Below, piece by piece: positions 25,332 to 41,277 of a stretch of DNA of 42,349 nt. The notes beneath the pieces are model-generated. The model was not told the origin of the DNA, searched no databases, and saw nothing but the letters and a program-made list of their open reading frames with translations. The DNA comes from Phycicoccus flavus (GTDB lineage Bacteria > Actinomycetota > Actinomycetes > Actinomycetales > Dermatophilaceae). The position numbers and the translations under genes were made by a program. The DNA lies in the NCBI RefSeq assembly GCF_004025965.2, contig NZ_SAYU02000035.1, positions 1 to 42,349 of the forward strand, given 5' to 3'. Within the stretch, counting starts at the first letter, position 1. Each line of letters opens with the position of its first letter.

Positions 25332-26000
25332 TCAGGCGGTGACTCCGTGGCTCGCCGACATTGTGCCGTAGCGGTTGCTGTAGCGGTCGAAGTTCGCCTC
25401 GATCTCTTCCTGGGGCAAAGAGGTGACCTCTCCGAGGCCCATCGCCACCGCCACCGTGTGAGCGACGTCCTCGACCATGACCGCTGCCTGCAGGGCCTTC
25501 GAGATGGAGGGCCCGATAGTGAACACCCCGTGCTGTTGCATGAGGATGGCAGGCGAGCGACCGATCTTCGCAATGACCTCCTTGCCGATCTGGTCGCCTC
25601 CGATGGAGGCGTACCCGCCGCACGGCACCGGCCCACCGAACTCGTCGGCGATCGCGGTGAGGCAGCAAGGAATCTCCCGGCCGACCGCAGCGAACGCTGT
25701 CGCGTAGCGAGAGTGGGTGTGCACCACCGACTGGACATCGGCTCGGCCGGCATAGATCCCCAGGTGGGACTGAGTGTCCGACGACGGGCCGTGGTCACCC
25801 TCGACGACGTGGCCGTCGTAGGAGACGACGACCATGTCCTTGGGTGTCATGGCGGAATACAGAACTCCCGAGGGCTTGATGACGATCATCTCCCGATCCT
25901 CGTCCCGCGCCGACAGGTTCCCGCCCGTCCAGGCCACCAACCCGGCCTCTGCGAGGGCGAGGTTCCCTGCGCACACCTGCTCCTTCAAGTCATCCAACAT
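25332..26000 (-). CDS. ulaF: L-ribulose-5-phosphate 4-epimerase, UlaF/AraD type
   Basis: The 222-residue class II aldolase-fold enzyme would convert L-ribulose 5-phosphate to D-xylulose 5-phosphate, the last step of the Ula route. Family features include the MLDDLKEQV start, GNLSARD, IKPSGVLY, PSSDTQSH, zinc ligands H94/H96 (VVHTHSRYATAF) and H157 (QQHGVF), and candidate catalytic D119. ATG 26000 matches the AraD start; an earlier in-frame start at 26063 lacks support. It is third in the minus-strand ulaD-ulaE-ulaF order, 66 bases after ulaE. The related 3-oxotetronate-phosphate decarboxylase is an alternative, but overall similarity and context favour the epimerase. Confidence 0.87.
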   Translation of the reverse strand: MLDDLKEQVCAGNLALAEAGLVAWTGGNLSARDEDREMIVIKPSGVLYSAMTPKDMVVVSYDGHVVEGDHGPSSDTQSHLGIYAGRADVQSVVHTHSRYATAFAAVGREIPCCLTAIADEFGGPVPCGGYASIGGDQIGKEVIAKIGRSPAILMQQHGVFTIGPSISKALQAAVMVEDVAHTVAVAMGLGEVTSLPQEEIEANFDRYSNRYGTMSASHGVTA

Positions 26001-26066
26001 GGTGCTTCCCTCTCTTGATCGGGTGCCGGGGGCCGAACCGACCTCGGCGATATCAGGGGACATAGC

Positions 26067-26945
26067 TCAGTGGCGGATACCCGCGGCATCGAGGTGCTTC
26101 TCGACCACCAGCCGCGCCGCCACACAACGCTCGACAGAGTCGTCCGCGTCGTCGTTCCACATCTCGACCATCATCCGGCCGCTCCACCGCTGTCGGGCCA
26201 GCTCGGCGAAGGCCTTGTCGAAATCAGCCACGCCGTCGCCCATAGGCACTCGGCGAGGTTCACCCACCCTGACGTCCTTGACGTGGATGGCCAGCATGTG
26301 GCCTGCCCCGGCCCGGAGTTCAACCTCCTCGTCGAGTCGCTGCTCGGCGATGTTGCCCACATCCGGATACAGCTGCAGCCAGGGCGAGTCAATCTCGCGT
26401 ACCAGCTCCATGGCGCGGGTCAGCGAGGTGACGTCCGCGCCGTCGACGTTCTCGATGCCGAGCAGGACGCCGGCGCGAGCCGCCTTGGGAACCGCTCGTC
26501 GCAGAGAGGCGACATAGCGGTCCCGCTGACCGGGATCCGGCGACTCGTAGAAGGCGTAGTAGCCCGCCACCTGCAGAACCGGTGCCCCGAGGTCAGCACA
26601 GAGGCGAATGCCCTGCTCGAAAATCTGGTCGGCCTCGTCGGCCACTGCCGGGTCCGCCGATCCGGGGCCGACCGCGCGGTGCACCGACAGACACACCCCG
26701 CCGATGGCGATGCCGTTGCGAGCCGCAGCGTCACGGACTTCGATCCTCTTGTGGGGCGGCCAGTGCAAGCGGGCCCTCCGTTCGGTCGACTCGTCCACCG
26801 ACAGGTCGACGAAACGGAACCCGGCGTCCTTGGCCTGACGGAACAGCCGGTCCCAGTCGCCCGTCCACCGCAAGGCCTTCTCGTAGATCCCGAGGACGAC
26901 CTCGCAGCACGGAGTCCCGGTGCCACCGGAAGCGATGACGCTCAC
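26067..26945 (-). CDS. ulaE: L-xylulose/L-ribulose-5-phosphate 3-epimerase, UlaE type
   Basis: The 292-residue TIM-barrel sugar-phosphate epimerase would turn L-xylulose 5-phosphate into L-ribulose 5-phosphate. The four metal ligands of the family are visible: E165 (LLGIENVDG), D195 (QLYPDVGNIAEQ), H221 (AIHVKDVR) and E261 (MMVEMWND). The GTG at 26945 overlaps the ulaD stop as GTGA, so translation is coupled; another GTG two codons earlier is possible. The sequence CLSVHRAVGPGS matches the UlaE/SgbU substrate region. No disruption is seen. Confidence 0.88.
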   Translation of the reverse strand: MSVIASGGTGTPCCEVVLGIYEKALRWTGDWDRLFRQAKDAGFRFVDLSVDESTERRARLHWPPHKRIEVRDAAARNGIAIGGVCLSVHRAVGPGSADPAVADEADQIFEQGIRLCADLGAPVLQVAGYYAFYESPDPGQRDRYVASLRRAVPKAARAGVLLGIENVDGADVTSLTRAMELVREIDSPWLQLYPDVGNIAEQRLDEEVELRAGAGHMLAIHVKDVRVGEPRRVPMGDGVADFDKAFAELARQRWSGRMMVEMWNDDADDSVERCVAARLVVEKHLDAAGIRH

Positions 26946-27604
26946 GCCCACACCCGGGCCAGCTCGTCCTGCAGCTCGGTGGCAGCGGCAAGCGGGTCCT
27001 CCGCTTCGACGATCGACCGACCGGCGATGACCACCCCCACCGGTGCGCCCTGGAAGGTCTCGAGGTCCTTCACGGTGACACCGCCGGTGATCGTCACGGT
27101 CAGACCCAGGCCGGCGAGCTCTCCGACCCGATCGACGTCCTGCTCGCCCCACGTGAGTGATCCGGCCGCCTCCTTGTCCCTCGATCGCTTGACGATGACG
27201 TGCTGCACGCCAAGGTCGCGCCAGCGTCGAGCCTGCTCGACGTCGTAGCTCTCGCCGAGCTCCACCTGGACCTCTCCCCCGTGGTCTTCGGCCACGGTGA
27301 CCACCTGCTCCACCGTGGTCAGGGAGGCGCCGGCGACCACGCTGACCCAGGAGGCCCCCGCATCGAAGCAGTGCTTGGCGATGATGGAGCCGGCCTCGAC
27401 GATGCGAACGTCGGCGAGAACGACCTTGTCGGGATAGAGGGCCCGGACCTCGCGAACCGCCCGGAGTCCTTCGCCGAGGACCAGGACGGTGCCGCACTCG
27501 ATCACATCCACCTGGCTCACCGCCTTGTTGAGAGGCCGAAGCGCGCTCGAGAGGTCGGTCATGTCGAGGGCCAGCTGCAGCCGTGGCCGGGGGAGGTGAG
27601 TCAT
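26942..27604 (-). CDS. ulaD: 3-keto-L-gulonate-6-phosphate decarboxylase, UlaD type (altered motif)
   Basis: The 220-residue barrel belongs to the OMP decarboxylase suprafamily and aligns with E. coli UlaD from LQLALDMTD to the IAGRSI phosphate loop. UlaD converts 3-keto-L-gulonate 6-phosphate to L-xylulose 5-phosphate. D14, E36 and D65 are retained. The hallmark DxKxxD reads DVRIVE (65-70), so the catalytic lysine is Arg67 and the last aspartate Glu70. This change could alter rate or specificity. ATG 27604 has AGGAGATTCCG upstream. It is the first gene of the minus operon and divergent from ulaG across a 586-bp region with several palindromes. Confidence 0.82.
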   Translation of the reverse strand: MTHLPRPRLQLALDMTDLSSALRPLNKAVSQVDVIECGTVLVLGEGLRAVREVRALYPDKVVLADVRIVEAGSIIAKHCFDAGASWVSVVAGASLTTVEQVVTVAEDHGGEVQVELGESYDVEQARRWRDLGVQHVIVKRSRDKEAAGSLTWGEQDVDRVGELAGLGLTVTITGGVTVKDLETFQGAPVGVVIAGRSIVEAEDPLAAATELQDELARVWA

Positions 27605-27827
27605 CGGAATCTCCTGCGTGTCGGTGCGTCTGCCGCCTCCATCGGTACGGGTGGCACAACCGTGGAACGGTGGGCCAACCGGGAGGAATGGACGTGAGGC
27701 GACGAACCTAGGAGCAGGACTCGGCAGTCAGGAACGGCTCATGAACATGTGTGCCCACAGTCGGATCGAGCTGGCCCTTCGAGCACCACAGAGCCCAGAA
27801 GCACGCCTCGACGGTGCCTCGGACAGG

Positions 27828-27844
27828 GGTGTGACGTTCACACC
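27828..27844. promoter_or_regulatory. Inverted repeat GGTGTGA-N3-TCACACC
   Basis: A perfect 7-bp inverted repeat with a 3-nt centre lies 224-240 bases upstream of the ulaD start. It resembles a CRP site but the spacer is too short (3 rather than 6), so another dimeric regulator is more likely. Confidence 0.4.
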
Positions 27845-27916
27845 TGTTCAATCAGGGCGTCCTCGGCCGACGTCGGCGGCACCGGCTTGCGATCGGCATC
27901 CCCGGGGGCGCGCCAA

Positions 27917-27943
27917 CTGACGGATCCGTCAGCACATCTGTGC
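27917..27943. promoter_or_regulatory. Overlapping palindromes in the ulaD/ulaG divergent region
   Basis: CTGACGGATCCGTCAG is a perfect 16-bp palindrome. Its last base begins GCACA-TC-TGTGC, a second perfect inverted repeat. Both lie about 250 bases before ulaG and 315 bases before ulaD. Confidence 0.4.
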
Positions 27944-28190
27944 GATGACATCGTCAAAGGCTCTGCGTTGCTCACGCCGTACCGGTACGCGAGGACACCT
28001 CGTGCACGAAAGTGCACCAGATCCGGCGAGCGTGCCCGGATGACCGGCACCATTCACGGAGCCGCATCTGCGGCGCCGTATAGCGAGGAGCGGGCGTTCG
28101 TCCGATTGCCCGACGATTGCGGCAGCCGCCACGGTACGGACCGAGCAGGACCCGACTCGCGGGCCGGCGACGACGAGAGGACACAGTGCA

Positions 28191-29255
28191 GTGACGAACG
28201 TATCCGACATCACCCGTGAGTCATGGATCCTGTCGACGTTCCCCCAGTGGGGGACGTGGCTGAACGAGGAGATCGAGGAAGCGCAGGTCTCCCCCGGGAC
28301 GTTCGCCATGTGGTGGCTGGGTAACACCGGCATCTGGGTGAAGTCCGAGGGCGACGCCAACATCCTCATCGATCTCTGGGCGGGCTCCGGCAAGCGCACC
28401 CAGAAGACCGCTGACATGGTCGCTCGTCACCAGATGGCGCGCATGTCCGGTGTCCGCAAGCTGCAGCCGAACCTTCGCCTCTCCCCCTTCGTCATCGACC
28501 CGTTCGCGATCCGGACGGTGGACGCCGTCCTGGCCACGCACACCCACACCGACCACATCGACGCCAACGTCGCGGCAGCGGTTCTGCAGAACTGTGAGCC
28601 CACCGTTCCTTTCGTAGGGCCGAAGTCCGCCACCGACCTGTGGCAGAAGTGGGGGGTACCCGCGGACCGGTGCATCACCGTCCGCCCCGGTGACGTGGTG
28701 CCCGTCAAGGACACCGAGATCCACGTCGTCGAGTCCTTCGACCGCACCATGCTCATCACCCAGCCGGAGGACGTCGAAACCAAGGGCCGGCCGGTGGCGG
28801 ACATGGACGACCTCGCAGTCAACTGGATCATCAAGACCCCAGGAGGCTCGCTGTACCACGGCGGCGACTCGCACTACTCGAACATGTACGCCAAGCACGG
28901 CAACGAACACGACATCGACGTGGCCATGGGTGCCTTCGGCGAGAACCCCCGCGGGATCACCGACAAGCTCACTGCAGCGGACATGCTTCGGATGGCCGAG
29001 GGCCTGCAGACCAAGGTCGTCATTCCCTTCCACCACGACATCTGGTCGAACTTCATGGCCAACCCTGAGGAGATCGTGACGCTCTGGGAGATGAAGCGAC
29101 ACGCGCTGAAGTACGTTTTCCAGCCCTACATCTGGCAGGTCGGGGGAAAGTTCGTCTTCCCCGAGAACAAGGACGACCTGCGGTACCACTACCCTCGCGG
29201 CTTCTCGGACGTCTTCAGCTGCGAGCACGAGCTGCCGTACGACGCCTTCCTCTGA
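28191..29255 (+). CDS. ulaG: L-ascorbate-6-phosphate lactonase UlaG
   Basis: The 354-residue metallo-beta-lactamase-fold enzyme opens the lactone of L-ascorbate 6-phosphate to 3-keto-L-gulonate 6-phosphate. The metal motif THTHTDHID gives H117, H119, D121 and H122. Further family landmarks are [14 protein letters not shown] near the start, [33 protein letters not shown] and [11 protein letters not shown]. Length equals that of E. coli UlaG. The GTG at 28191 has a weak GAGAGGA upstream. It is divergent from ulaD-ulaE-ulaF. Because UlaG acts on a phosphorylated substrate, a kinase or PTS must act before it, and no PTS gene is in the window. Confidence 0.93.
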
Positions 29256-29296
29256 CGTCGTCCGTCGTCAGGCTCGACGCCGACGCGCGCCGAGAA

Positions 29297-29336
29297 GGGG
29301 CGGGGTGGGCGAGGTGAGGCTCGTTCGCCCCGCCCC
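29297..29336. terminator. Bidirectional terminator, ulaG / MFS
   Basis: GGGGCGGGGTGGGCGAG (29297-29313) pairs with CTCGTTCGCCCCGCCCC (29320-29336) as a 17-bp stem with three G-T wobbles and a 6-nt loop. It separates the converging ulaG and MFS genes. Confidence 0.8.
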
Positions 29337-29353
29337 GCCTTTGCCAAATCGTC

Positions 29354-30856
29354 CTACCCGACCACCGAGTCGTCCCGATCCTGAGCGCCCCGGAACGCTC
29401 CCGGGCTCTCGATGGCCGGGTCGTCACCGTCGAGCCAGCGGGACAGGTCCGGCACGGGGAGCCGGCGGTAGGAGGCAAGGAATGCGACAGTGCAGACGAA
29501 CAGTGTGCCGACCCCGATCGTGACCGCGATGCCGAGGGTGATGGCGACCTGCCGCTCCTGTGCGGCCCCGTCGGCAGAGATCAGGGCGGCGAACTGCACC
29601 AGCACGGGACCGATGAGGAAGTCACCGATCGACCGGACGAGCTCGACGAACGCGAAGATCCGACCGAGAGCGGCCGAGGGCGTCGACAGACCTGCGAGGA
29701 AGAGGGCCGGGCTGACCGTGGCTCCCGCACCGAACCCCAGAGCACCGAGAGCCAGCTGACTTCGGCCGAGGTCCTCGGGGAGTCCAGTGCTCATCAAGAC
29801 CAGACCTGCGAGGATCATCGCCACCAGCCCGAAGAGGATCAGGACGGGCAGGTAGCGCGTCCTGAACACCAGCCCGAGGGTGACGGCAGCCAGTAGCGCA
29901 CCGGGTACGAGTGGCCACAGGTCGAGACCGACCCGACCCGGATCAAGACCCCAGAGAGTGACCATACGCAGCTGGGTGAGACTCACCAGCGACAGAAAGA
30001 CGCCTCCGGCGAAGGACGCCACGAGTGTCCCGATCACCGGAGCGGTGCGGATCAGCAGACCGACGGCGACAAGAGGTTCGCGGCGGCGGTCCTCAACGAT
30101 GAAGATCGCCGCAAAAGCAGTGAGCCCGACGAGCAAGGGCGCGAAAAACCACGGAGAGACGAAGCCGACTGACGGCAGCAACGCCACCGCGCCGAACGCG
30201 AGAACCGTCGCGACCAGCGCCAGGACCACCACCGGGGGATCGGCCACCAGGTCGGGCGCCATGGCCGGTGTCCGCTCCAGCACCGAGGCGCCGAGCACCA
30301 CAGCGAGCGCCGTCGTCAGCGCCAGGACAGCGAAGAGGACGCGCCAGCCGCCGAACCGGTCGACAATACCGGCGGCGAGCGGGCCCCCCGCAACCCCACC
30401 GAAGAGACCCACGTTGACAAACACCGCTGTCATTGGCACCTTCGCCGCCGGGAATCTCTGGATCGCCGGGGGCAGCGAGACGATCAGCAGGAGGCCGGTC
30501 GTCAGGCCGACAAGCACGAAGCCCACAGCGAAGGACCACGCACCCAGCAACCCGAGCGCCAGAAGCCACCCGACGAGCGCCAGTGCGATGAGAACAAGGT
30601 AGGTCGGGCGCTGGGGGAACCGCCGACCCAGGTCTCCGGCCAGCAGCGCTCCGAAGGCGTACATCGCCGTCGCCATCGACTGGGTGACGTCCACGAAGCC
30701 CGACGAGACAGACAGGTCGGCCGCGAGCCCGTCGCCCAACAGGCGGAGGGCCGAGGTGGCCACCAGGTAGGGCACCAGTGCCAGCAACGTGGTCAGCACT
30801 ACCGGGCCGTACCGGCCGCGAATCCCGTGGTCTTGGCGACCCGTGTTGGTCTTCAC
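29354..30856 (-). CDS. MFS transporter (DHA2-like, 500 residues)
   Basis: The hydrophobic protein has about 14 membrane segments and the MFS loop signature after helix 2 (GDLGRRFPQRPTYL). Length and the helix count point to the DHA2 (14-helix) branch, usually exporters. GTG 30856 has AGGAA upstream. It lies 29 bases downstream of the SorC-type regulator on the same strand, so both are probably one transcript under autoregulation. It might export a toxic intermediate or take part in substrate uptake; the sequence does not tell. Confidence 0.82.
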   Translation of the reverse strand: MKTNTGRQDHGIRGRYGPVVLTTLLALVPYLVATSALRLLGDGLAADLSVSSGFVDVTQSMATAMYAFGALLAGDLGRRFPQRPTYLVLIALALVGWLLALGLLGAWSFAVGFVLVGLTTGLLLIVSLPPAIQRFPAAKVPMTAVFVNVGLFGGVAGGPLAAGIVDRFGGWRVLFAVLALTTALAVVLGASVLERTPAMAPDLVADPPVVVLALVATVLAFGAVALLPSVGFVSPWFFAPLLVGLTAFAAIFIVEDRRREPLVAVGLLIRTAPVIGTLVASFAGGVFLSLVSLTQLRMVTLWGLDPGRVGLDLWPLVPGALLAAVTLGLVFRTRYLPVLILFGLVAMILAGLVLMSTGLPEDLGRSQLALGALGFGAGATVSPALFLAGLSTPSAALGRIFAFVELVRSIGDFLIGPVLVQFAALISADGAAQERQVAITLGIAVTIGVGTLFVCTVAFLASYRRLPVPDLSRWLDGDDPAIESPGAFRGAQDRDDSVVG

Positions 30857-30885
30857 GGCCCATTCCTACCCCATCGCGATGGAGG

Positions 30886-31857
30886 TCAGGCGTAGTCCAG
30901 AAGTAGCCGGGCCGTCGACTGGTCGGTGGCCAGTCCCGTGATGAGTCCCGCCTTGAGGATGGCGGCGATCGCCGGAACTTTGTCGGTGCCCCACGCCATC
31001 GCCATGACCAGTCCGATTCCCGCCAGCCGTTCCGGCTCCATCGCCATGGTCCGCTCGCAGAGCGAGGTACGCAGGTGCCGGCCCTTGGCATCGAAGAAAT
31101 GTCCACACAAGTGCGCGACGGCGCCGACTCTACGGAGCTCGTTGGTCTGGGCTGAACCCATGAACGGCCCGAGGATCGGGCCAGGGTGTCCTCGGTGATC
31201 GATGGCTCCGACTCCGAGCAACGCGATGTCGGAGCGGGCTGCCAGCTCCAAAGACGTGAGAACGACCTCCTCCTGACGCATCGAGCGCGCCACCTCCGTC
31301 GATCCCAGGACCAGGGGCACGGGCAGTGGGCGGAAGGTGCCGCCCAGCCGCGCGGCGAGGGATCGGCACAGCTCGGGGCTGTCAGCCAGCAGAGGGTCGC
31401 CGGAGCCGATGGACCCGACCATCTGAATGACTCCGGAGTAGCTCCATCGCTGGCGCGGCATCGCGTGGACGAAGGCGCGCAGGGAGGTGCCGTTGGACAG
31501 CGCGATCATCGACCGTTCGTTGCCCCGCTCCGCCACGGCGAGGGAGGCCAGCCGGGCTACCGCCTCGGCAGGCTGTGTCCTCGGCTCGACCGCCGCCACG
31601 AGAGCGACCTCGAGACCGTAAACCTCGCGCAGGCGGCGTTCCTCGTCCATGGAGCCGGCGGCAGGCTCGCTGATGCTGATGTGGACCATGCCGGACTGTC
31701 GCGCCTCGGTCAACATTCGGCTGACGGTCGGCCGGGAGTAGCCGACCGTCCGGGCGATGTCGTCCTGGGATGCATCCTCGAGGTAGTACATCCGAGCCAC
31801 CCGATGCAGGAGATCGAGTCGTGACCGGTCCGAGACCGGTCCCCGTGCGGCGCACAT
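30886..31857 (-). CDS. SorC-family sugar-responsive regulator
   Basis: The 323-residue regulator has an N-terminal HTH (about 10-55: LLHRVARMYYLEDASQDDIA then YSRPTVSRMLTEARQSGMV) and the SorC sugar-phosphate-binding domain (ALSNGTSLRAFVHAM, SDIALLGVGAI, GHFFDAKGRHL). Such regulators sense phosphorylated sugars and can activate or repress. ATG 31857 begins just before the HTH; an open extension to 32064 looks non-coding. It is divergent from the PfkB kinase gene, with 11-bp tandem repeats between. Its ligand may be an ascorbate or sugar-acid phosphate, by context only. Confidence 0.88.
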   Translation of the reverse strand: MCAARGPVSDRSRLDLLHRVARMYYLEDASQDDIARTVGYSRPTVSRMLTEARQSGMVHISISEPAAGSMDEERRLREVYGLEVALVAAVEPRTQPAEAVARLASLAVAERGNERSMIALSNGTSLRAFVHAMPRQRWSYSGVIQMVGSIGSGDPLLADSPELCRSLAARLGGTFRPLPVPLVLGSTEVARSMRQEEVVLTSLELAARSDIALLGVGAIDHRGHPGPILGPFMGSAQTNELRRVGAVAHLCGHFFDAKGRHLRTSLCERTMAMEPERLAGIGLVMAMAWGTDKVPAIAAILKAGLITGLATDQSTARLLLDYA

Positions 31858-31906
31858 CCGTTCTCGATTCTGTCCTGACGCGCCGACGGACGCGGCGCGG
31901 CTTCCT

Positions 31907-31928
31907 GCATTTTGCCAGCATTTAGCAG
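31907..31928. promoter_or_regulatory. Tandem 11-bp repeats, candidate SorC operator
   Basis: GCATTTTGCCA (31907-31917) is followed directly by GCATTTAGCAG (31918-31928), matching at 8 of 11 positions. The stretch is AT-rich for this genome and lies 50-71 bases before the SorC-type start, in the region shared with the PfkB kinase gene. Confidence 0.4.
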
Positions 31929-32101
31929 GTCGCGGAAGGCGTCGAGCGCGGACACTCCTCCGGCGGAGCACGAATGTGCCGGGACCGGCCGGCGATGGCC
32001 AGCACCTTCGGTAGACATTCTCTTCACACACCATCCGTCCCGCCTCACCACGGTTCAGAGCCACCCGCCGACTCGGGTTGCGTCTTCAAAGGAGAAGCTC
32101 A

Positions 32102-33049
32102 ATGTTCGACCTGACGACCATCGGCGAAGGACAGATCCGGCTGACGGTGGCCCAGGGCGAGCGGCTGTCCCGCTGCAACACCCTGAGAGTCTCGGCTGCC
32201 TGCTCCGAGGCCAACGTCTCCGGCCTGCTGGCCCAGCTGGGCCACCGAACCTCCTGGTGCTCACGAGTGCCGCGAGGTGATCTGGCCGAACGCTGTCTGT
32301 CGGAGTTCCGCTCCGTCGGGGTGGACATGTCGGCGATGCTTCGCACCGACGAGGGTCGGATGGCGCTGTACTTCATGGAGCCGGGACAGCCCCCGATGCC
32401 ATCGCGAGTCAGCTACGACCGCACCCACTCCCCGTTCCGCACGATCACTCCAGAGATGGTCGACTGGGACGTCCTGCTCTCGACCCGTCTGGTGTTCGTC
32501 ACCGGCATCACCGCAGCCTTGACGGACCAGACCTACGAGACGCTCCGGCACTTCGTGAGCCTCGCGCACGACAGCGGCATCGACGTCGCGCTCGACGTCA
32601 ACTACCGCAGCCTGTTGTGGTCGCCCACTCAGGCACGCCGAAGGCTCGGGTGGATCGCAGAACGTTCGAGCATCATCTTCTGCTCACGAACCGACGCACG
32701 GGTCGTCTTCGATATCAACGCGCCTGGCGCCGAGGCCTCGCTGGCCCTCCGGGAGATGTTCGGAGCCACCCACGTCGTCTCCACGGACTCCACGGACGGC
32801 GTCTACTACGCCGGTCCGGACGGTGAGCAGGACTTCGAGGTCCGAACTGTGCCCATCGTCGACCGGCCGGGCGCCGGCGACGCCTTCGTCGCGGGCACTC
32901 TGCACGGCTTCCTGAGCGGCGACATCGTCGGCGGCATCGGCCACGGCCTCCACGTCTCGAAGTTCGCTCTCACGCATCACGGTGACCTCACCCATGTCAC
33001 CGCGGAGGAGCTCGGCGCCGACCCGCAGAGCACCGACATCCTGCGCTGA
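32102..33049 (+). CDS. PfkB-family carbohydrate kinase
   Basis: The 315-residue ribokinase-fold enzyme begins MFDLTTIGEGQIRLTV and carries the C-terminal anion-hole and catalytic-base motif DRPGAGDAFVAGTLHGF. An N-terminal segment, ACSEANVSGLLAQLGHRTSW, is the substrate-side PfkB pattern. It most resembles 2-keto-3-deoxygluconate kinases, which phosphorylate sugar acids. ATG 32102 has AAAGGAGAAG upstream. A transporter gene follows after 80 bases. In this locus it is the obvious candidate to provide the phosphorylated substrate needed by UlaG. That role is inferred; a KDG or fructose-type kinase is the alternative. Confidence 0.88.
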   Translation: MFDLTTIGEGQIRLTVAQGERLSRCNTLRVSAACSEANVSGLLAQLGHRTSWCSRVPRGDLAERCLSEFRSVGVDMSAMLRTDEGRMALYFMEPGQPPMPSRVSYDRTHSPFRTITPEMVDWDVLLSTRLVFVTGITAALTDQTYETLRHFVSLAHDSGIDVALDVNYRSLLWSPTQARRRLGWIAERSSIIFCSRTDARVVFDINAPGAEASLALREMFGATHVVSTDSTDGVYYAGPDGEQDFEVRTVPIVDRPGAGDAFVAGTLHGFLSGDIVGGIGHGLHVSKFALTHHGDLTHVTAEELGADPQSTDILR

Positions 33050-33129
33050 ACCCCACGACCGCGCGACAAGCCCGGCACGACAACGCCAGCACTCGCCGGC
33101 CCAACCTGACACGAAAGGCAGTGACACCC

Positions 33130-34491
33130 ATGACCGCGACAGATCCCCGGACGCCAACGGCGACCGAGCAGATCGACGGAAGGCCGTTGACCCGCAACCA
33201 GAAGAGCCTCATCGGCCTGGTTGTCACCGGCAACATCAGCGAGTTCTTCGACATGTTCCTCATCGGTTTCGTCGTCGCGCTGCTGACGAAGCCGTGGAAC
33301 CTGACGGGCGTCGAGGCCGGAGTCATCCTGGCCTGTTCCGGCCTCGGCACTGTGCTGGGTGCGATCATGTGGGGCCGTCTCGCCGACGTCATCGGTCGCA
33401 AGCGGACCTTCTGGTGGTGTGTGGTCTCCTTCGTGGGTTTCACCGCGGTGATGCTGCTGACGCCCGACCGCGGATGGTGGTTCCTGGCCTTGTGCCGCAT
33501 CGGCGTGGGCATCGGTGTCGGCGGACTGAACATCAGCTCGATCCCCTACGTCCAGGAGTTCGTGCCGGCCAAGCAGCGAGGGCTCCTTGCCGGGCTTGCA
33601 TCGGTCTTCATCCCGGCCGGTCTGCTGCTCGGAGCCCAGGCCCAGAAGTGGATCGGGCCCACGATCGGCTGGCGGGGGATGGTCGCTCTCGGCATCATCC
33701 CGATCCTGTTGCTGCTGTGGCTCCGACTCGTGCCCGAGTCCCCGCGGTACCTGCAGGCCAAGGGCCGGTTGGAGGAGGCCCGCGAGTCGCTGGCCTGGGC
33801 GATGATGATCCGACCCGACGAGGTGGGTGAGCTCCCGACGTACGAGAAGCCGGCGCGCTCCTCGTACGGATTGATCTTCGACAAGTACAAGAAGCAGCTG
33901 ACGATCATCACCATCGGCTCCTTCTGCTTCATCCTCGGGTCCTTCACCATCCAGTCCTGGGGGCAGACCTTGCTCAAGGACGGTTTCGGCTACGACGCCG
34001 CCTATGTCGGGGTGCTGTTCACCTGGGTGGCGCTGGCTGATGTCGCCGGTCGTCTCGGCTCGGCCTGGCTCGCCGACATCGTCGGACGACGGCTGGTCAT
34101 GTTCTCCTTCGGGCTCATCGGGGCCGTCGGCGCCGGGATCTGCGCCGTCGCGGCGACGCAGGCCAACGCGACGATGTTCTTCGTCGGTATCCTCGTCGCG
34201 ATGGCCTTCGGTGACGGGGCGTTCGGCATCCTCAATGCTTTCGGTGCCGAGCAGTTCCCGAACGAGGCGCGCTCCACCGGGCTCGGCCTGGGCTACGGCA
34301 TCGGTTCGACGGCCAAGATCTTCGGCCCGGCGCTGATGGGGGCTCTCATCGGCGGCTCGATGATCGACGTCAACGTGACACTCAACGCGGTGCCGACCGC
34401 CTTCTGGCTCTTCTCTCTGCTGCTCGTCATCGGCGGCGTCACCTACCTGTTCGCCACGGAGACGCGCAACGTCTCGCTGGACAAGATCTGA
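33130..34491 (+). CDS. MFS sugar/organic-acid transporter
   Basis: The 453-residue protein has 12 predicted membrane segments with MFS signatures GRLADVIGRKRTFW after helix 2 and LVPESPRYLQAKGRLEEA in the central loop, typical of the sugar-porter/MHS branch. A second half-motif reads AWLADIVGRRLVMF. ATG 33130 is preferred because AAAGG is only 2 bases from the GTG at 33121 but 11 from the ATG. It follows the PfkB kinase gene and probably imports the compound that kinase phosphorylates. It ends at a strong hairpin. Confidence 0.87.
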   Translation: MTATDPRTPTATEQIDGRPLTRNQKSLIGLVVTGNISEFFDMFLIGFVVALLTKPWNLTGVEAGVILACSGLGTVLGAIMWGRLADVIGRKRTFWWCVVSFVGFTAVMLLTPDRGWWFLALCRIGVGIGVGGLNISSIPYVQEFVPAKQRGLLAGLASVFIPAGLLLGAQAQKWIGPTIGWRGMVALGIIPILLLLWLRLVPESPRYLQAKGRLEEARESLAWAMMIRPDEVGELPTYEKPARSSYGLIFDKYKKQLTIITIGSFCFILGSFTIQSWGQTLLKDGFGYDAAYVGVLFTWVALADVAGRLGSAWLADIVGRRLVMFSFGLIGAVGAGICAVAATQANATMFFVGILVAMAFGDGAFGILNAFGAEQFPNEARSTGLGLGYGIGSTAKIFGPALMGALIGGSMIDVNVTLNAVPTAFWLFSLLLVIGGVTYLFATETRNVSLDKI

Positions 34492-34561: not shown

Positions 34562-35518
34562 TCAGCGCTGCGACGCAGGACCCAGAGTCAGCATCAGCAG
34601 GTCCGCGTCGCCGGTGACGAACAAGCGCGAGTGGTCCGAGTCGAAGGTGCAGTTGCTGACGATGTGCGGTGCCGGGACCAGTCCCAGAGTGGCCCCCCGG
34701 TCGTCGAAGACCTGGATGCCGGTGCGCGAGCTCGACCACAGCCAGCCCCTATCGTCGACGGCGAACCCGTCCGGAATGCCCTGCTCCACGTGAGCGAAGT
34801 GGCGCCGCCCCGACAGTCGGCGCCCGTCCCAGTCGAACGCGACGATGTCCGCTGCCGCGTCCGGTGGGGTCCGGGAGACGTAGAGCACTCTCTCATCCGG
34901 CGAGAACCCGAGGCCGTTCGGTCCGTCCAGCGTGGCCATCAAGGTCGCCGCACCCTCGACGAACCGGTAAACGCCTTCATGATCGACCTCTTGCCGCCCC
35001 ATGAAGCCCTCCTCCGGCTGGGTGAGACCGAAGACGGGGTCGGTGAACCAGATGGCGCCGTCACGGGCGACGACGATGTCGTTCGGCGAGTTCAGCCGTC
35101 CGTCGGCGGATCGCTCCACGAGCAGCTCGTTGCTGTCGCGCCGAGTCCGGCTGATTCCGCGCCGGCCGTGCTCACAGTGGACGAGGTCGCCGTCTGCGGT
35201 GACCGCGTTGCCGTTGCAGTACGGCGTGGCGTCGAGCAGCACGTCGACGGCACCGTTCTCCCGCCGACCAAGGACCTGACGCCCTCGGACGTCGGAGAAG
35301 ACCAGGGTCCGCTCATGCTGCCACCACACTGGCCCCTCGGACCAGATTGCATGCTCATAGAGGCGCACGAGCCGAGCGCTCGGGTCCAGCACCTCCGCCA
35401 GCCGTGCGTCATCGACCCGCACTCCAGGGAGCTCGAGCATCTCCGGCTCACCCGGGTCTCGCAGTCGGAGCGGAGACGCGGAGCCGGCGCCGGACACGAC
35501 GACCGGCCCGGTGACCAT
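34562..35518 (-). CDS. SMP-30/gluconolactonase-family lactonase
   Basis: The 318-residue six-bladed propeller should hydrolyse an aldonolactone. The four metal ligands of the family are visible: E61 (IWSEGPVWW), N146 (LNSPNDIVV), N201 (DGPNGLGFS) and D250 (GIPDGFAVDD). ATG 35518 shares one base with the cupin stop (TGATG), so it is the last, translationally coupled gene of the five-gene sugar-acid operon. A threonolactone or gulonolactone-type substrate would fit the context, but that is inference. Confidence 0.88.
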   Translation of the reverse strand: MVTGPVVVSGAGSASPLRLRDPGEPEMLELPGVRVDDARLAEVLDPSARLVRLYEHAIWSEGPVWWQHERTLVFSDVRGRQVLGRRENGAVDVLLDATPYCNGNAVTADGDLVHCEHGRRGISRTRRDSNELLVERSADGRLNSPNDIVVARDGAIWFTDPVFGLTQPEEGFMGRQEVDHEGVYRFVEGAATLMATLDGPNGLGFSPDERVLYVSRTPPDAAADIVAFDWDGRRLSGRRHFAHVEQGIPDGFAVDDRGWLWSSSRTGIQVFDDRGATLGLVPAPHIVSNCTFDSDHSRLFVTGDADLLMLTLGPASQR

Positions 35519-36006
35519 CAGAAGGGGTGCCGCGTCGGAGGCACCGGAGACTGCGCGAACTGCACAAGCATCTGGAAACAGGGCTCGTTGCCTACACAGC
35601 CGGACAGGTGGCCCCGCCGCTCCTCCTTCTCGACGGTGTCCTGGTCTTGGCCGAAGTGGATGTCACCAGGACCCATCTCGACCCGTCCCCCGTCTTGGGT
35701 CTCGATGAACCACCGGCCGCGCACGGGGACCACCCACTGCGGGTGGGGGCTCTCGTGCCATTGCCCTACCCAGCCGACCGGGAGTACCGCGAAGGAGACC
35801 GACGAAACCTCACCCGGGAACGGTCGGAGCCATTGCGGGTCGGCGCCACCTCCGATGCTCTTCATCGCGAAGCCGCCCATCAGGGAGTCCGTGATTCGAC
35901 TGCTCCCCTCCGAGTCGGTCCAGAGATGCAAGAACGGCATCTTCGGGGGTACGTCGGGGTTGCCCCCGTCGTTGTCGAGCGGGTAATCCGTGGGTGTACG
36001 CGGCAT
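35518..36006 (-). CDS. Cupin-fold protein
   Basis: The 162-residue protein has one cupin barrel. The first motif is GQWHESPHPQWVVPVRGRWFI, with candidate metal His residues in WHESPHP. The second is EMGPGDIHFGQD. ATG 36006 has AAGGAGAAGG upstream; a GTG at 36051 is possible but less well supported. It lies between the permease and lactonase genes. Cupins in sugar-acid operons include isomerases and accessory proteins, so a missing isomerase role is conceivable but not shown. Confidence 0.75.
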   Translation of the reverse strand: MPRTPTDYPLDNDGGNPDVPPKMPFLHLWTDSEGSSRITDSLMGGFAMKSIGGGADPQWLRPFPGEVSSVSFAVLPVGWVGQWHESPHPQWVVPVRGRWFIETQDGGRVEMGPGDIHFGQDQDTVEKEERRGHLSGCVGNEPCFQMLVQFAQSPVPPTRHPF

Positions 36007-36058
36007 CTGCACAAGCCTTCTCCTTGTCGATTTCGTCAGGGCGTAAGCCACCCCACGC

Positions 36059-37504
36059 TCATGCGAGCGCGAAGATCAGGGCGGTGAGGAGGAAGCCTGA
36101 CACGCCAGTGACGGTCGTCAGGACCGTCCACGTCCGTAGGCCGTCCGCGACGGACAGACCCAAGTACTTGGTGACGATCCAGAACCCGGAGTCGTTGATG
36201 TGCGACAGACCGAGGCCGCCGAATCCGATGGCCAGGGTGATGAGGGCCACCTGCAACGAGCTGTACCCGCCATTGGTGATCGCGTCGGCAAGGAGGCCTC
36301 CCGTCGTCAGGATGGCGACGGTGGCCGAACCCTGGGCCGCGCGAAGAGCAGACGAGAGCAAGAACCCCGAGACGATGAGCGGAAGGCCGAGTCCGGTGAG
36401 GCTGTCGGTGAGGGCTTTGCCGATCCCCGACTCGACGAGGACGTTGGCGAACACCCCGCCGGCTCCGGTGACGAAGATGATGATGGCGACCAGCGGCAGG
36501 GCGGAGTCGGCGACGATGCTGCGCTGGGTGCGATCCCATCCGGCCCGAGAGCCGATGACCAGGTAGGCCACCAGGACACCGACGAGAAGCGCGGTGGTCG
36601 GCGAGCCGATGAACGAGGCGTACGGAACCAGCGCGTTGTCCTCCCCGAGGACCGTGGTGAGGACCGACCCCACCATGATCATGACGATCGGCAGCAGGAT
36701 GAGGCCGACGACCGTACCGGTGCCCGGCACGCCGGCGCTGCCGTTGTGTGAGGACGCGTTGTCGGTGTCGGTCCTCGCCTCGGTCTTGGTCGCGGTCCCT
36801 CCGGACCCGGTCGTGTCGGGCCCGTCCGCGAAGGACGTCCCCCCGTCCGCGTCCTCGGTGCTTGCGGTGGCGGGCGACGGGCCGAGGGTGATGCCGTCGA
36901 CCTTGATGATCCTGGCGGCGAAGAAGCCCACGGCTCCAGCTGCTGCGCCGACCACCAAGGCGAGGAGGGTGAGCAACCCCACGGAGGCGCCAGTCACAGC
37001 GGCTGCGGCGACCGGCCCGGGGTGGGGTGGGACGGTGACGTGCAGGGCGAGCAGGACGACGCCGACAGGAAGTCCGACCTTGAGGGGGTTCAGGCCGGCG
37101 ATCTTGGCGAAGGCGAAGACGATCGGGGCCAGGATGATGAAGGCGACGTCGAAGAAGACAGGAATCCCGAGGACGAATGCCGCCGCTGTGAGCGCCACGG
37201 TGACTCGGGCCGGGCCGAGACGCTCGGTGAACCGGCGCGCCAGGTGATCGGCGCCTCCGGAAACCTCGATCAGACGCCCGAGGACCGAACCGAGGCCGAC
37301 GACGATCGCGACCGAGCCGAGCACCTTGCCCATCCCGGCGATCATGGTGGGGACAACCTCCTCCACCGGAATGCCGGCCAGGAGAGCCGCGCCCATGGAC
37401 ACCAACAGCAGGGAGACGAAAGCCGGAAGTTTGAACCGGACCACCAGCAGGAGCAGCACGGCGACGGCTACCGCTGCGGTCACGAACAACATCGTCGAGC
37501 CCAT
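36059..37504 (-). CDS. GntP-family gluconate/sugar-acid permease
   Basis: The 481-residue membrane protein begins VTAAVAVAVLLLLVVRFKLPAF and has the GntP patterns PVFFDVAFIILAPIVFAFAK, HVTVPPHPGPVAAA and a C-terminal GFGGLGLSHINDSGFWIV. These H+ symporters import gluconate, threonate or related acids. A hydrophilic insert of about 60 residues (near 215-275) separates the two halves and is longer than usual. ATG 37504 is one base past the LtnD-like stop. It is the transporter of this operon. Confidence 0.9.
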   Translation of the reverse strand: MGSTMLFVTAAVAVAVLLLLVVRFKLPAFVSLLLVSMGAALLAGIPVEEVVPTMIAGMGKVLGSVAIVVGLGSVLGRLIEVSGGADHLARRFTERLGPARVTVALTAAAFVLGIPVFFDVAFIILAPIVFAFAKIAGLNPLKVGLPVGVVLLALHVTVPPHPGPVAAAAVTGASVGLLTLLALVVGAAAGAVGFFAARIIKVDGITLGPSPATASTEDADGGTSFADGPDTTGSGGTATKTEARTDTDNASSHNGSAGVPGTGTVVGLILLPIVMIMVGSVLTTVLGEDNALVPYASFIGSPTTALLVGVLVAYLVIGSRAGWDRTQRSIVADSALPLVAIIIFVTGAGGVFANVLVESGIGKALTDSLTGLGLPLIVSGFLLSSALRAAQGSATVAILTTGGLLADAITNGGYSSLQVALITLAIGFGGLGLSHINDSGFWIVTKYLGLSVADGLRTWTVLTTVTGVSGFLLTALIFALA

Positions 37505-37505
37505 G

Positions 37506-38399
37506 TCAGTCCTCCCTCGCGCCCAGGACGGTGATGACGGAGGAGTCGTCGGCCGCGGCCAGACCAGCGGCCTGCCCCAGCAGGAAGATCTGTTCGGCCG
37601 CTCCGGCAACCGGGGTGGCCAGCCCCGCTGCCCGGGCGGCCGAACTGACGATGCCCATGTCCTTGACGAAGATGTCGAGGCGGCTGTTGACCTCGGCGCC
37701 CCCGTCGTCGAATGCCTGCAGCATCCTCGGGCCGCGGTCGCCGAGCATGAAGGACGCTGCTGCGCCGGCGCCCAGGGTCTCCAGGACCAGGCGCTGGTCC
37801 AGACCCAGAGCACCGGCGAGAGCGAGCGCCTCCGCCCCGGCCGCGATGTGGACCCCGCAGAGGAGCTGGTTCACCGTCTTCATCGCTTGGCCATCACCAG
37901 GAGATGAGCCCATCCGCCGAAGCGTGGAGGACAGGTGCTCCAGGACGGGTTCGGCGACTGAGTATGCCTCGTCGCTCGCGCCGACCACGATGAGCAAGTC
38001 GCCGACGCCAGCTCTTTTGGGCCCACCCGAGATCGGTGCGTCGACCAGGTGGATACCGTCGGCCTGCAGCTTCTGGGCGACCTCGCGCACCGGACCGATG
38101 CCGATGGTGGATGTGAGGACGACGACGCTGCCGGTGCGCAATACCTCGGCGACGCCGTTGTCCCCGTAGAGCGCGTCTTCCAGCTGGGCACCATTGCGGA
38201 CGGCGAGCAGGACGCAGTCTGCGTCCTGGGCGGCGGCCCGCGCTGAGTCCGCCGGGTCGACGTTCTTCTCGGACGCCGCTCGGATGCGCTCGGGGTCGAG
38301 GTCGTAGCCTCGGACGGTGAACCTCTCGGCCAGGCGGGTCGCCATGGGCAACCCCATGGCACCGAGTCCGATGACGGCGATGGTGGGTTCGGACGACAT
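37506..38399 (-). CDS. ltnD: L-threonate-type dehydrogenase (3-hydroxyisobutyrate dehydrogenase family)
   Basis: The 297-residue NAD(P)-dependent enzyme has the Rossmann motif GLGAMG (11-16), the substrate motif DAPISGGPKRAGVGDL and catalytic K174 (AMKTVNQLLCG). In four-carbon sugar-acid pathways LtnD oxidises L-threonate to 2-oxotetronate. Location between a DUF1537 kinase and a GntP permease supports that call, although other beta-hydroxyacid dehydrogenases (tartronate semialdehyde reductase) share the fold. ATG 38399 has AAGGAG upstream, placed in the loop of a short hairpin. Confidence 0.82.
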   Translation of the reverse strand: MSSEPTIAVIGLGAMGLPMATRLAERFTVRGYDLDPERIRAASEKNVDPADSARAAAQDADCVLLAVRNGAQLEDALYGDNGVAEVLRTGSVVVLTSTIGIGPVREVAQKLQADGIHLVDAPISGGPKRAGVGDLLIVVGASDEAYSVAEPVLEHLSSTLRRMGSSPGDGQAMKTVNQLLCGVHIAAGAEALALAGALGLDQRLVLETLGAGAAASFMLGDRGPRMLQAFDDGGAEVNSRLDIFVKDMGIVSSAARAAGLATPVAGAAEQIFLLGQAAGLAAADDSSVITVLGARED

Positions 38400-38400
38400 G

Positions 38401-38418
38401 CTGTTCCTCCTTGAACAG
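38401..38418 (-). promoter_or_regulatory. Hairpin presenting the ltnD ribosome binding site
   Basis: On the minus strand CTGTTC-AAGGAG-GAACAG forms a 6-bp stem whose loop is exactly the Shine-Dalgarno, ending two bases before the ATG. It may tune translation of the dehydrogenase, or be an operator or chance. Confidence 0.35.
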
Positions 38419-38482
38419 TCGGTGACGCCGTAGGGCGTGCGCTCGAGCGGCGGGATGAGACGTGGTACGAGTGGATGAACGA

Positions 38483-40699
38483 TCAGGCCGTCAAGGTGGC
38501 GACGACCTCGGCCAGGCTCGAGTCGTCCCCGACGTTTCCGGCGAAGACGACGTAGGGGATGCCCTGGGCCGGACCGTCCGTCGGCTCCCAGAGTGAGACG
38601 ATGCCCGGGAGCATCGGGCCGCGAACCATCGCACGCGCGATGGAGAGGCCGCGGCTCGCGACCTCGGCCGAGGTGATTCCTCCCTTGGCCACGACGAACC
38701 GCGGCGGCGCGGCCTCGAGTACTTGGCGTACGACCTCGACGACCGCGCTCGAGACCTGCCGCGCGATGTCCAACGAGTCATCGGCGTTCTCACCGACCAC
38801 GAGCTCGCGCGAGGTCGTGACGACGACGTTGCCGGAGCTCAGGCCCTCCACGGTCTCGCGAACGATCCGGTCCAGATGCGCCTCACGGTCCGGGCCCAGC
38901 ACCTTCTCGACCGCGATCGTCATGACAGTGGGATCCTGCTCCTCCAGAAGCCGTTTCAGCTGCCGTGTGGTGAGCCCCACGTGAGAGCCGACGACCACGA
39001 GCCCGTAGCTCGACCCGTCGCCCTCTCCGCCTGCGATGATCTGGTCGACATCGGAGTTGCTGAGAGGTTCCAGCACGTCCTGCCCGATGAAGCCTCTGAC
39101 GAACGGCGGTCCCACCCGGAACAGGAAGCGCTTCCCGGCGTCCTCTGCGGCCAACAGGGCCAGCGACAGCACGCGCAGGTCGGTCTCCTCGACGATGTCG
39201 ACCACGACAGGTCGAGCGTCGTGGAGACCGAGCAAGATATCGGTTACGGCCTCATGGCCGGATCGCAGGATGTCTAACGGAACTGTCGCCACGTCCGAGG
39301 CCGCGATCCGACCCGCGGTCTTCTCCTGGACCCATTCGCGAAGGTCCGACGCCGCGTACCCGAAGGTGGCGTCGCGAGCGAACTCGGTCTCGCTGGCCGG
39401 CACGTAGCCATCCGCTTCTGACCCGGCGTAGTGGACCGATCGAACGGTCACGCGTCCGGCGTCACCGAAGGCAGGCACCAGCACGACGGCGTCCACCTGC
39501 GCCCGAGCCTCCTCGAGCGCGGCGACCAGTGTGTCGGGCTCGAGCGGGTAGTGGCCGCGCAGCGTGGAGTCCGAGCGAGAGACGAAGTCGATCTCCACGT
39601 CCAGCAGCGCGGCGGCGTCCAAGGCGTTGCGGGCCACTTCGCGGTTGACCCGCTCGGCGTCTGCCGCGTCGAGGCTTCGCGAGTTGGTGAGCACGTAGAC
39701 CGCGTCGGCACCAGTGCGCAGGGCCCATGCGAGGTCCTCGGTGTCCCAGCGCGTGAGTACCGGGAGGTCCGCCACCGACTGGGTGCCCGTCGGATCGTCG
39801 TCGAGGACGACCAGCGTGCGCCGGGGTCGCTGGGCCCGAGATGCGCGGATCTCCTCGGCCGTCACACTCCGCGGAGGAGGCATGTCGCGGAGCAGTTCGT
39901 CCTTGGTCCGGGCAGCATCGTGGTCGGTCACGTCGTCTCCATCTGGGTGATTGAGGGATGAGGACACATCAGAGGTGAGACCAGCGGCCGAAACCGCCGA
40001 CTTGCCGACACCGGACAGGTACCTGCGGGCGTCGTCGCGGGTCTGGATCAGGTGTTCGCGCATCGCCGTGGCCGTCGTCGAGGCACGGCCGGTGTGCAAA
40101 GCCGCGAGGATCGCGGCGTGATGGACGATCGCATGCTCGCGGATATCGTGAACCGCGGCCGTGAGGCGTTGGGAGTACACAAGGGACTCGGCGACCGGAG
40201 CAAAGGCCACCCGGACGAACGGGTTCCCACAGCCCTCGATGATGCGGGTGTGGAATGCGAGGTCGGCGGCCACGAACGACTCGACGTCGTCCTCACGATG
40301 AGCGAACCGCATCGCGGCAACGTTGTCGGCAAGCGTCTCGAGATCCGCGGGGGCCGCCAAGGGCGCGAACAACTCGGCCGCGCCGACCTCGAGCATCCCG
40401 CGAACCTCCACGAGGCGACCGATGACTTGCGAAGCATCCCCTTCGCTCACCCGGATGACCGCCCCGACGGAGGTCCACCGGCCGACGGGGGCCACGAATG
40501 TCCCGACTCCCTGCACGGACCGCACGACTTGACCTGCGGCCAGCATCTTCACGGCTTCGCGCATAGTGAGCCGGGAGACCCCGAACTGGCCGGCCAGCTC
40601 TGACTCGGAGGGCAGCAGGGATCCCCCGACGAACTCGCCGGAGACGATCCGGTCCAACAGACGTCCTGCGACGTCCTCGACCAGGCTGGTGCGCGGCAA
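38483..40699 (-). CDS. GntR/FadR-type regulator fused in frame to a DUF1537 four-carbon acid-sugar kinase
   Basis: One open frame of 738 residues covers two proteins usually encoded apart. Residues 1-70 are a GntR winged helix (LPSESELAGQFGVSRLTMREA), about 80-225 an FCD ligand domain, and about 230-275 a Ser/Asp-rich linker. About 290-735 is a DUF1537 (OtnK-type) kinase with VVLDDDPTGTQS, SRSDSTLRGHY, VAKGGITSAE and FAGNVGDDSSL. TTG 40699 is chosen because GGGAGG precedes it and the HTH starts there. No stop separates the halves. A GTG at 39931 (residue 257) with GGAG upstream could also start a separate kinase, so two products are possible. The kinase would phosphorylate 3-oxotetronate or a related acid. 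Confidence 0.82.
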   Translation of the reverse strand: MPRTSLVEDVAGRLLDRIVSGEFVGGSLLPSESELAGQFGVSRLTMREAVKMLAAGQVVRSVQGVGTFVAPVGRWTSVGAVIRVSEGDASQVIGRLVEVRGMLEVGAAELFAPLAAPADLETLADNVAAMRFAHREDDVESFVAADLAFHTRIIEGCGNPFVRVAFAPVAESLVYSQRLTAAVHDIREHAIVHHAAILAALHTGRASTTATAMREHLIQTRDDARRYLSGVGKSAVSAAGLTSDVSSSLNHPDGDDVTDHDAARTKDELLRDMPPPRSVTAEEIRASRAQRPRRTLVVLDDDPTGTQSVADLPVLTRWDTEDLAWALRTGADAVYVLTNSRSLDAADAERVNREVARNALDAAALLDVEIDFVSRSDSTLRGHYPLEPDTLVAALEEARAQVDAVVLVPAFGDAGRVTVRSVHYAGSEADGYVPASETEFARDATFGYAASDLREWVQEKTAGRIAASDVATVPLDILRSGHEAVTDILLGLHDARPVVVDIVEETDLRVLSLALLAAEDAGKRFLFRVGPPFVRGFIGQDVLEPLSNSDVDQIIAGGEGDGSSYGLVVVGSHVGLTTRQLKRLLEEQDPTVMTIAVEKVLGPDREAHLDRIVRETVEGLSSGNVVVTTSRELVVGENADDSLDIARQVSSAVVEVVRQVLEAAPPRFVVAKGGITSAEVASRGLSIARAMVRGPMLPGIVSLWEPTDGPAQGIPYVVFAGNVGDDSSLAEVVATLTA

Positions 40700-40717
40700 C
40701 GCTGCCTCCCACTTCCA

Positions 40718-40730
40718 GACATCTGATGTC
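40718..40730. promoter_or_regulatory. Candidate GntR operator
   Basis: GACATC-T-GATGTC is a perfect 6-bp inverted repeat with a one-base centre, 19-31 bases before the TTG of the GntR-kinase gene. Size and symmetry fit a FadR-subfamily operator, so the operon is probably autoregulated. Confidence 0.6.
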
Positions 40731-40980
40731 CAGTCAGGCGAACGTAGTGCTCCTCCCGTACCTGACGCAAGGTCACCTCGAAACACGGCCCGTACCGGGC
40801 CACCTTGCGGTGCGATCCCACCGTTCCGCTTGTACGAGACCGACTGCGTCCCCCTCGACGGCCCGTTCAGGACCGTCGCCTGCACTCGCGACTGCTGACG
40901 GTTCGGCCGACACTGACCTGCCCCCCGGTTTGGTTCCAGTGGTGGTGGTGAGTCGAGCGCCTGACTGGAAGGCTCTGACA

Positions 40981-41277
40981 GTGCCTCGTCCCTACCCTCC
41001 GGAGTTCCGCGCGCGAGCAGTCGCGCTGGTCCGATCCGGCACACACGTCAAGCAGACCGCCTACGAGCTCGGCATCAGCGCCGGCTGCCTGCACGAGTGG
41101 CTCAAGCAGGACCGGGTCGACCGCGGCGAGATCACGGGCGTTCCCGCAAGCGAGTCCGCCGACCTGCGGGCCGCCCGGAAGCGGATCCGTGAGCTGGAGC
41201 GCGAGCTGGCGATCATCCGACAAGCAGCGACATTCCTGGCGGAGGACAAGCCCCACCCAAAAGGATTCACCCGGTGA
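40981..41277 (+). CDS. IS3-family transposase OrfA (element A)
   Basis: The 98-residue protein starts at a GTG with MPRPYPPEFRARAVALVRSG, an HTH of the IS3 OrfA type, followed by a leucine-zipper-like coiled coil (ADLRAARKRIRELERELAII). It would form the DNA-binding part of OrfAB. The gene appears intact, but the partner orfB is broken, so it cannot support transposition by itself. Confidence 0.85.
   Translation: MPRPYPPEFRARAVALVRSGTHVKQTAYELGISAGCLHEWLKQDRVDRGEITGVPASESADLRAARKRIRELERELAIIRQAATFLAEDKPHPKGFTR

Follow-up and report, generated by a model that had tools for sequence, protein, structure and literature searches.

The closest described system is the ula regulon of Escherichia coli, in which entry goes through the UlaABC phosphotransferase system (PTS), ulaG is divergent from ulaDEF, and the regulator is UlaR of the DeoR family. 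A survey covering over 100 genomes reports a ulaABCDEF unit in all cases (PMC3219644). A second route is encoded by the yia operons (yiaKLX1X2PQRS in Klebsiella and yiaKLMNOPQRS in E. coli), where a non-PTS transporter (YiaX2 being a secondary transporter) and a kinase feed homologues of UlaD, UlaE, and UlaF (PMC4324149, PMC6958661); these operons carry an FGGY kinase and the dehydrogenase YiaK, and no UlaG. Pantoea offers a further example of this type of route. Herein, we discuss a ula-like locus in 42,349 nucleotides of Phycicoccus flavus (contig NZ_SAYU02000035.1, G+C 68%; hereafter the window), which shares homologues of UlaG, UlaD, UlaE, and UlaF with E. coli, as well as the divergent position of ulaG, and differs from it in having a SorC-type regulator, a PfkB-family sugar kinase, and a major facilitator superfamily (MFS) transporter.

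The gene arrangement given in a preliminary description of this DNA is confirmed: the UlaG, UlaD, UlaE, UlaF, SorC, PfkB, and MFS genes lie where it had placed them, and UlaABC is indeed absent from the window, where E. coli UlaA, UlaB, and UlaC as queries gave a best E of 0.49. On balance, we lean toward a PTS-independent Ula pathway as the explanation. The MFS transporter downstream of the kinase would import L-ascorbate, or a very close relative, in unphosphorylated form, and the PfkB kinase would phosphorylate it at O6 to ascorbate 6-phosphate. UlaG would then open the lactone to 3-keto-L-gulonate 6-phosphate, the UlaD-like enzyme would decarboxylate this to L-xylulose 5-phosphate, and UlaE and UlaF would epimerise the latter to D-xylulose 5-phosphate, with SorC responding to a sugar-phosphate intermediate. 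All substrates, the direction of transport, and the regulation are points that we infer; for the PfkB protein, we regard phosphorylation of ascorbate as the most probable function.

Support comes from Trueperaceae (G001, G002, and G003) and other genomes of the same phylum, which for G001 we take to be Deinococcota. On one contig each, G001 (locus L024) and G090 (locus L106) carry SorC and, divergent from it, UlaG, a substrate-binding protein, two permeases, UlaD, UlaE, UlaF, and PfkB, the kinase of L024 running past the contig end. UlaG scores over its cut-off in 9 of 111 genomes of the phylum, with weaker matches only in eight more. UlaA (PF03611) was found in none of these nine, and PTS Enzyme I (PF05524) was detected in none of 12 genomes of the phylum (the nine plus G086, G089, and G095), while as a control the same search gave matches in 7 of 14 genomes, including E. 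coli and Deinobacterium chartae. In seven of the nine (G001, G002, G003, G083, G085, G090, and G091), on contigs often broken inside the operon, the kinase lies beside at least one ula gene; UlaG and kinase share a contig in three (G001, G090, and G091, the last with the final 43 UlaG codons). The second permease is confirmed in G001, G087, G085, G090, G091, G083, and G002.

A search with the UlaD of G090 gave any match in 13 of the 111 genomes and a close match in nine. In seven of these nine the kinase lies three genes downstream of ulaD, and in G089, which gave no ulaF match, two genes downstream; the contig of G087 stops inside ulaD. G086, G087, G089, and G095 are without a UlaG over the cut-off, the contigs of G086, G089, and G095 ending just upstream of ulaD. 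The same-phylum operons share with the window SorC, UlaG, an Arg/Glu-type UlaD (see below), UlaE, UlaF, and a sister PfkB, and differ in having an ABC importer where the window has an MFS transporter, so that the kinase is constant while the importer varies. Because UlaG, UlaD, UlaE, UlaF, SorC, and PfkB co-occur again in other genomes, their grouping is more than chance. Across 90 locus rows (three contigs occurring twice), UlaA was found in 46 and PfkB in four (three contigs), with zero overlap.

The idea that a transporter plus kinase replaces the PTS is thus supported by recurrence in genomes lacking UlaA and a detectable Enzyme I, although ascorbate as the kinase's substrate stays presumptive.

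The kinase itself is a PfkB-domain protein (PF00294, 88.6 bits against a cut-off of 25.8) with the GAGD motif, G257-A-G-D260 being invariant across eight aligned kinase rows, and its gene is preceded by AAAGGAG. It is 36-41% identical to the kinases of the Trueperaceae and same-phylum genomes, and in a tree of 24 kinases it groups with eight of these from seven genomes (support 0.974). All nine members of this clade have GEG(Q/N), whereas the 12 other kinases readable at that place (three of the 24 are unreadable there) have GE plus another residue; the aligned 2-keto-3-deoxygluconate (KDG)-type kinases fall outside the clade and lack GEG(Q/N), and several of them occur close to eda or a galactonate dehydratase gene, two being next to eda. 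A Thermomicrobium kinase, 37% identical, was considered as a further relative and set aside, with no ula gene annotated near it.

As for substrate, KDG kinases transfer phosphate to the hydroxyl at C6 of their six-carbon sugar-acid substrate, and phosphorylation of ascorbate at O6 by such a kinase would therefore be chemically reasonable. By sequence, the closest solved structures are KDG kinases (1v19, 2afb, and 2v78 among the best), which share the PfkB fold, and unassigned PfkB proteins; comparison of the predicted fold gives the same nearest structures, from a model (mean pLDDT 72, pTM 0.79) of use for the fold only. Structure 2dcn bears a title that mentions 2-keto-6-phosphogluconate together with a KDG kinase.

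Several observations weigh against the proposed pathway. For the kinase, KDG-kinase models are the nearest ones, yet no NCBIfam cut-off is reached (best 199 of 440 bits). Together with the structures, the nearness of these models would suit a plain KDG kinase standing beside ula genes by chance, a reading that we hold to be very improbable: the kinase repeatedly adjoins ulaD, ulaE, or ulaF elsewhere, it has its own clade and motif, and no eda-like gene was met beside it (no KDPG-aldolase gene is found next to it among the window genes scanned, nor as the next gene in L106).

KDG kinases act on open-chain sugar acids, and kinship with them also fits a kinase working after lactone opening, whereby an altered UlaG or spontaneous hydrolysis would yield 3-keto-L-gulonate and PfkB would then phosphorylate it, like LyxK of the yia route. 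The yia route gives a precedent, in that UlaDEF homologues are fed there by a kinase whose substrate is reported to be 3-keto-L-gulonate (PMC6958661). We nevertheless think this unlikely, since a UlaG so close to the E. coli ascorbate 6-phosphate enzyme (68% identity) would have to be idle or changed, and no YiaK-like dehydrogenase was found among the genes scanned at 25332-34491. An FGGY kinase was not found among these genes either.

UlaD is a further point of concern. The preliminary description had called all four Ula homologues clear, which is too strong for UlaD. UlaG, UlaE, and UlaF each score over at least one curated cut-off; UlaD falls short of both of its own (243 bits for a cut-off of 250, and 216 for one of 294). 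The D-x-K-x-x-D active site of the family reads DVRIVEAG in the window; where the E. coli enzyme has K64, D67, and H136, that of the window has R64, E67, and K136, and its reaction could thus differ. The accessible part of PMC5980557 tabulates the Asp, the Lys, and the second Asp for the KGPDC, HPS, and OMPDC rows. Among relatives with a kinase-type UlaD, Arg/Glu occurs in all nine that are readable (G002 and G083 are unreadable), G090 having R64, E67, H136, and A169 in place of T169. Of 57 UlaD matches in 96 loci, 46 have Lys/Asp, six rows (five contigs, all kinase-type) have Arg/Glu, and five are unreadable; in a separate set of 23 loci, Lys is present in 21 and the motif is missing in two. 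As read from these alignments, the Arg/Glu change is a hallmark of the kinase-type UlaD, and it is also the chief reason for caution about the reaction of this enzyme. In a UlaD tree, the window protein lies near the Arg/Glu relatives, yet an exclusive grouping was unsupported.

Such a change raises the possibility that UlaG, UlaD, UlaE, and UlaF have altered specificity and degrade a different lactone or sugar acid, and the occurrence of UlaG in two further gene settings without UlaD points the same way. Two features speak against this, namely the high conservation of UlaG and the retention in the window UlaD of D11, E33, D62, E112, R139, T169, and R192 (signature from Table 1 of PMC5980557, as far as that source was available), the latter being offset by the Ala at T169 in L106. 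We regard a different substrate as unlikely too, slightly more so than a kinase acting after lactone opening.

The UlaG of the window (with an HTHTDH motif) is closer to that of E. coli than to that of L106 (63% identity), the opposite of UlaD, UlaE, and UlaF, which are 52, 46, and 60% identical to L106 and 44, 37, and 40% to E. coli. With nearest relatives differing in this way, the genes did not necessarily move together: UlaDEF-PfkB looks like a single lineage, from which UlaG may have a separate history.

UlaG alone is, moreover, no proof of an ascorbate pathway, as it occurs without UlaDEF or kinase. At loci L108 and L109 (genomes G099 and G101), UlaG scores over its cut-off with no UlaDEF or kinase match; in G099 it adjoins BtpA-family and creatininase-family proteins (Pfam), and the proteins of G101 look alike. 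The importer at both loci looks peptide-type by eye, and Enzyme I was not detected in either genome. Among the proteobacterial loci L001-L020, 17 of 20 (L009 counted) have an FGGY kinase at least 50% identical to that of L009; L005 has UlaA in its place, and neither is seen in L001, on a contig of 6.2 kb, or in L010, on one of 14.6 kb. Many of these loci contain UlaE/UlaF-like genes, and 12 of the 20 encode an importer with a binding protein that shares 42-45% identity with its Trueperaceae counterpart. Searches for UlaD and for UlaA in five beta-proteobacterial UlaG genomes found neither in any of them, and the two of the five tested for Enzyme I both have it; the pathway of these UlaD-less proteobacterial loci must differ.

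Last among the opposing points are those of regulation and sampling. A comparison of 27605-28190 with 31856-32101 gave no common operator (four shared 16-mers against zero to nine in 20 shuffles). The UlaABC negative covers the 42,349 nucleotides of the window, most of the genomes used for comparison are drafts without a stated completeness, so that single absences are weak, and a close UlaD was not found in G002, where contigs are broken. Weighing all this, we still prefer the PTS-independent pathway with PfkB as ascorbate kinase. The fuller proposal, in which PfkB would be an ATP-dependent L-ascorbate 6-kinase in a PTS-free Ula pathway found in at least two phyla and paired with a decarboxylase that has Arg for the conserved catalytic Lys of its superfamily, has in our view a little less than an even chance.

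How new is such a route? The transporter-plus-kinase entry had been thought undescribed, but with the yia operons as a known non-PTS precedent this novelty is reduced, and what looks new is the pairing of PfkB with UlaG. In the open-licence literature searched, no description of UlaG with PfkB was recognised in titles or abstracts, no report of an ascorbate kinase was found, and titles and abstracts held nothing on topic for L-ascorbate 6-phosphate with a kinase and an ABC transporter.

In the UlaG scan of a species-genome collection, no actinobacterial copy of the cluster was found among the best 80 of 106 relatives, a result based on exact 8-residue peptide patterns that is not proof of absence, and no actinobacterium was seen among 40 of 75 UlaG matches listed from plasmid records. 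Plasmid UlaD matches (60 of 129 records sampled) included Rhodococcus, Arthrobacter, and Streptomyces at 34-41%; where these carry an annotation, it is hexulose-6-phosphate synthase or orotidine decarboxylase. Two actinobacterial UlaF neighbourhoods (from 25 of 705 matches listed) contain an FGGY kinase, and neither shows a match to UlaD, UlaG, or PfkB; nothing was found in the viral contigs searched.

Table. Features of the ula-like locus in the Phycicoccus flavus window, with family scores where available
Feature	Coordinates	Strand	Remarks
UlaF-like L-ribulose-5-phosphate 4-epimerase	25332..26063	-	NF005123 309 bits, cut-off 251; start uncertain
UlaE-like L-xylulose/L-ribulose-5-phosphate 3-epimerase	26067..26936	-	NF009688 322 bits, cut-off 317; start not fixed
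UlaD-like decarboxylase	26942..27604	-	best family match, below both cut-offs
Divergent intergenic region ulaD/ulaG	27605..28190		586 bases
UlaG, L-ascorbate 6-phosphate lactonase	28191..29255	+	620 bits, cut-off 306
Second MFS transporter	29354..30856	-	13-14 hydrophobic peaks; drug-efflux models matched only weakly
SorC/DeoR-type regulator with Sugar-bind domain	30886..31857	-	Sugar-bind 162 bits
PfkB kinase, KDG-kinase-like; proposed L-ascorbate 6-kinase	32102..33049	+	PF00294
MFS transporter, aromatic-acid/sugar-porter type; proposed importer	33130..34491	+	MFS_1 145 bits

UlaE is also over a second curated cut-off (243 against 200 bits) and below that of a third model (228 against 272), and the family match of UlaF starts near 26000. 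A likely start of SorC is the ATG at 31857; its gene and that of PfkB point away from each other in the window, as do the SorC and UlaG genes in the relatives. The proposed importer shows 12 hydrophobic peaks when the threshold is loose and 10 when it is stricter, and matches aromatic-acid/H+ symport and sugar-porter models, all below their cut-offs. Homology to YiaX2 was considered and rejected, the identity to the MFS transporter of the Pantoea example being 20%. A transporter 50% identical to the proposed importer is encoded on an aphid-symbiont plasmid (L146, 12001-13362), with no ula genes annotated near. The second MFS gene, downstream of SorC, is not mentioned in the preliminary description.

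Adjoining the locus on the minus strand, a block at 34562-41044 resembles one for L-threonate catabolism, encoding an SMP-30-type protein, a GntP-family transporter, a threonate-dehydrogenase-like protein (below cut-off), and a DUF1537-type kinase. Within it, 38483-41044 is a single frame of 853 amino acids that joins a GntR/FCD regulator to the DUF1537-type sugar-acid kinase with no stop between them, which may be a fusion, overlapping frame use, or a sequencing error. Plants form L-threonate when they break down ascorbate (PMC12540250), and we count the resemblance of this block in favour of the proposed pathway.

If true, the proposed pathway would show how vitamin C can be used by bacteria that have no phosphotransferase system. 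It would also provide a testable candidate ascorbate kinase and a natural case of Lys replaced by Arg in a decarboxylase superfamily that has been studied in depth, and UlaG should not be taken as a sign of a PTS.

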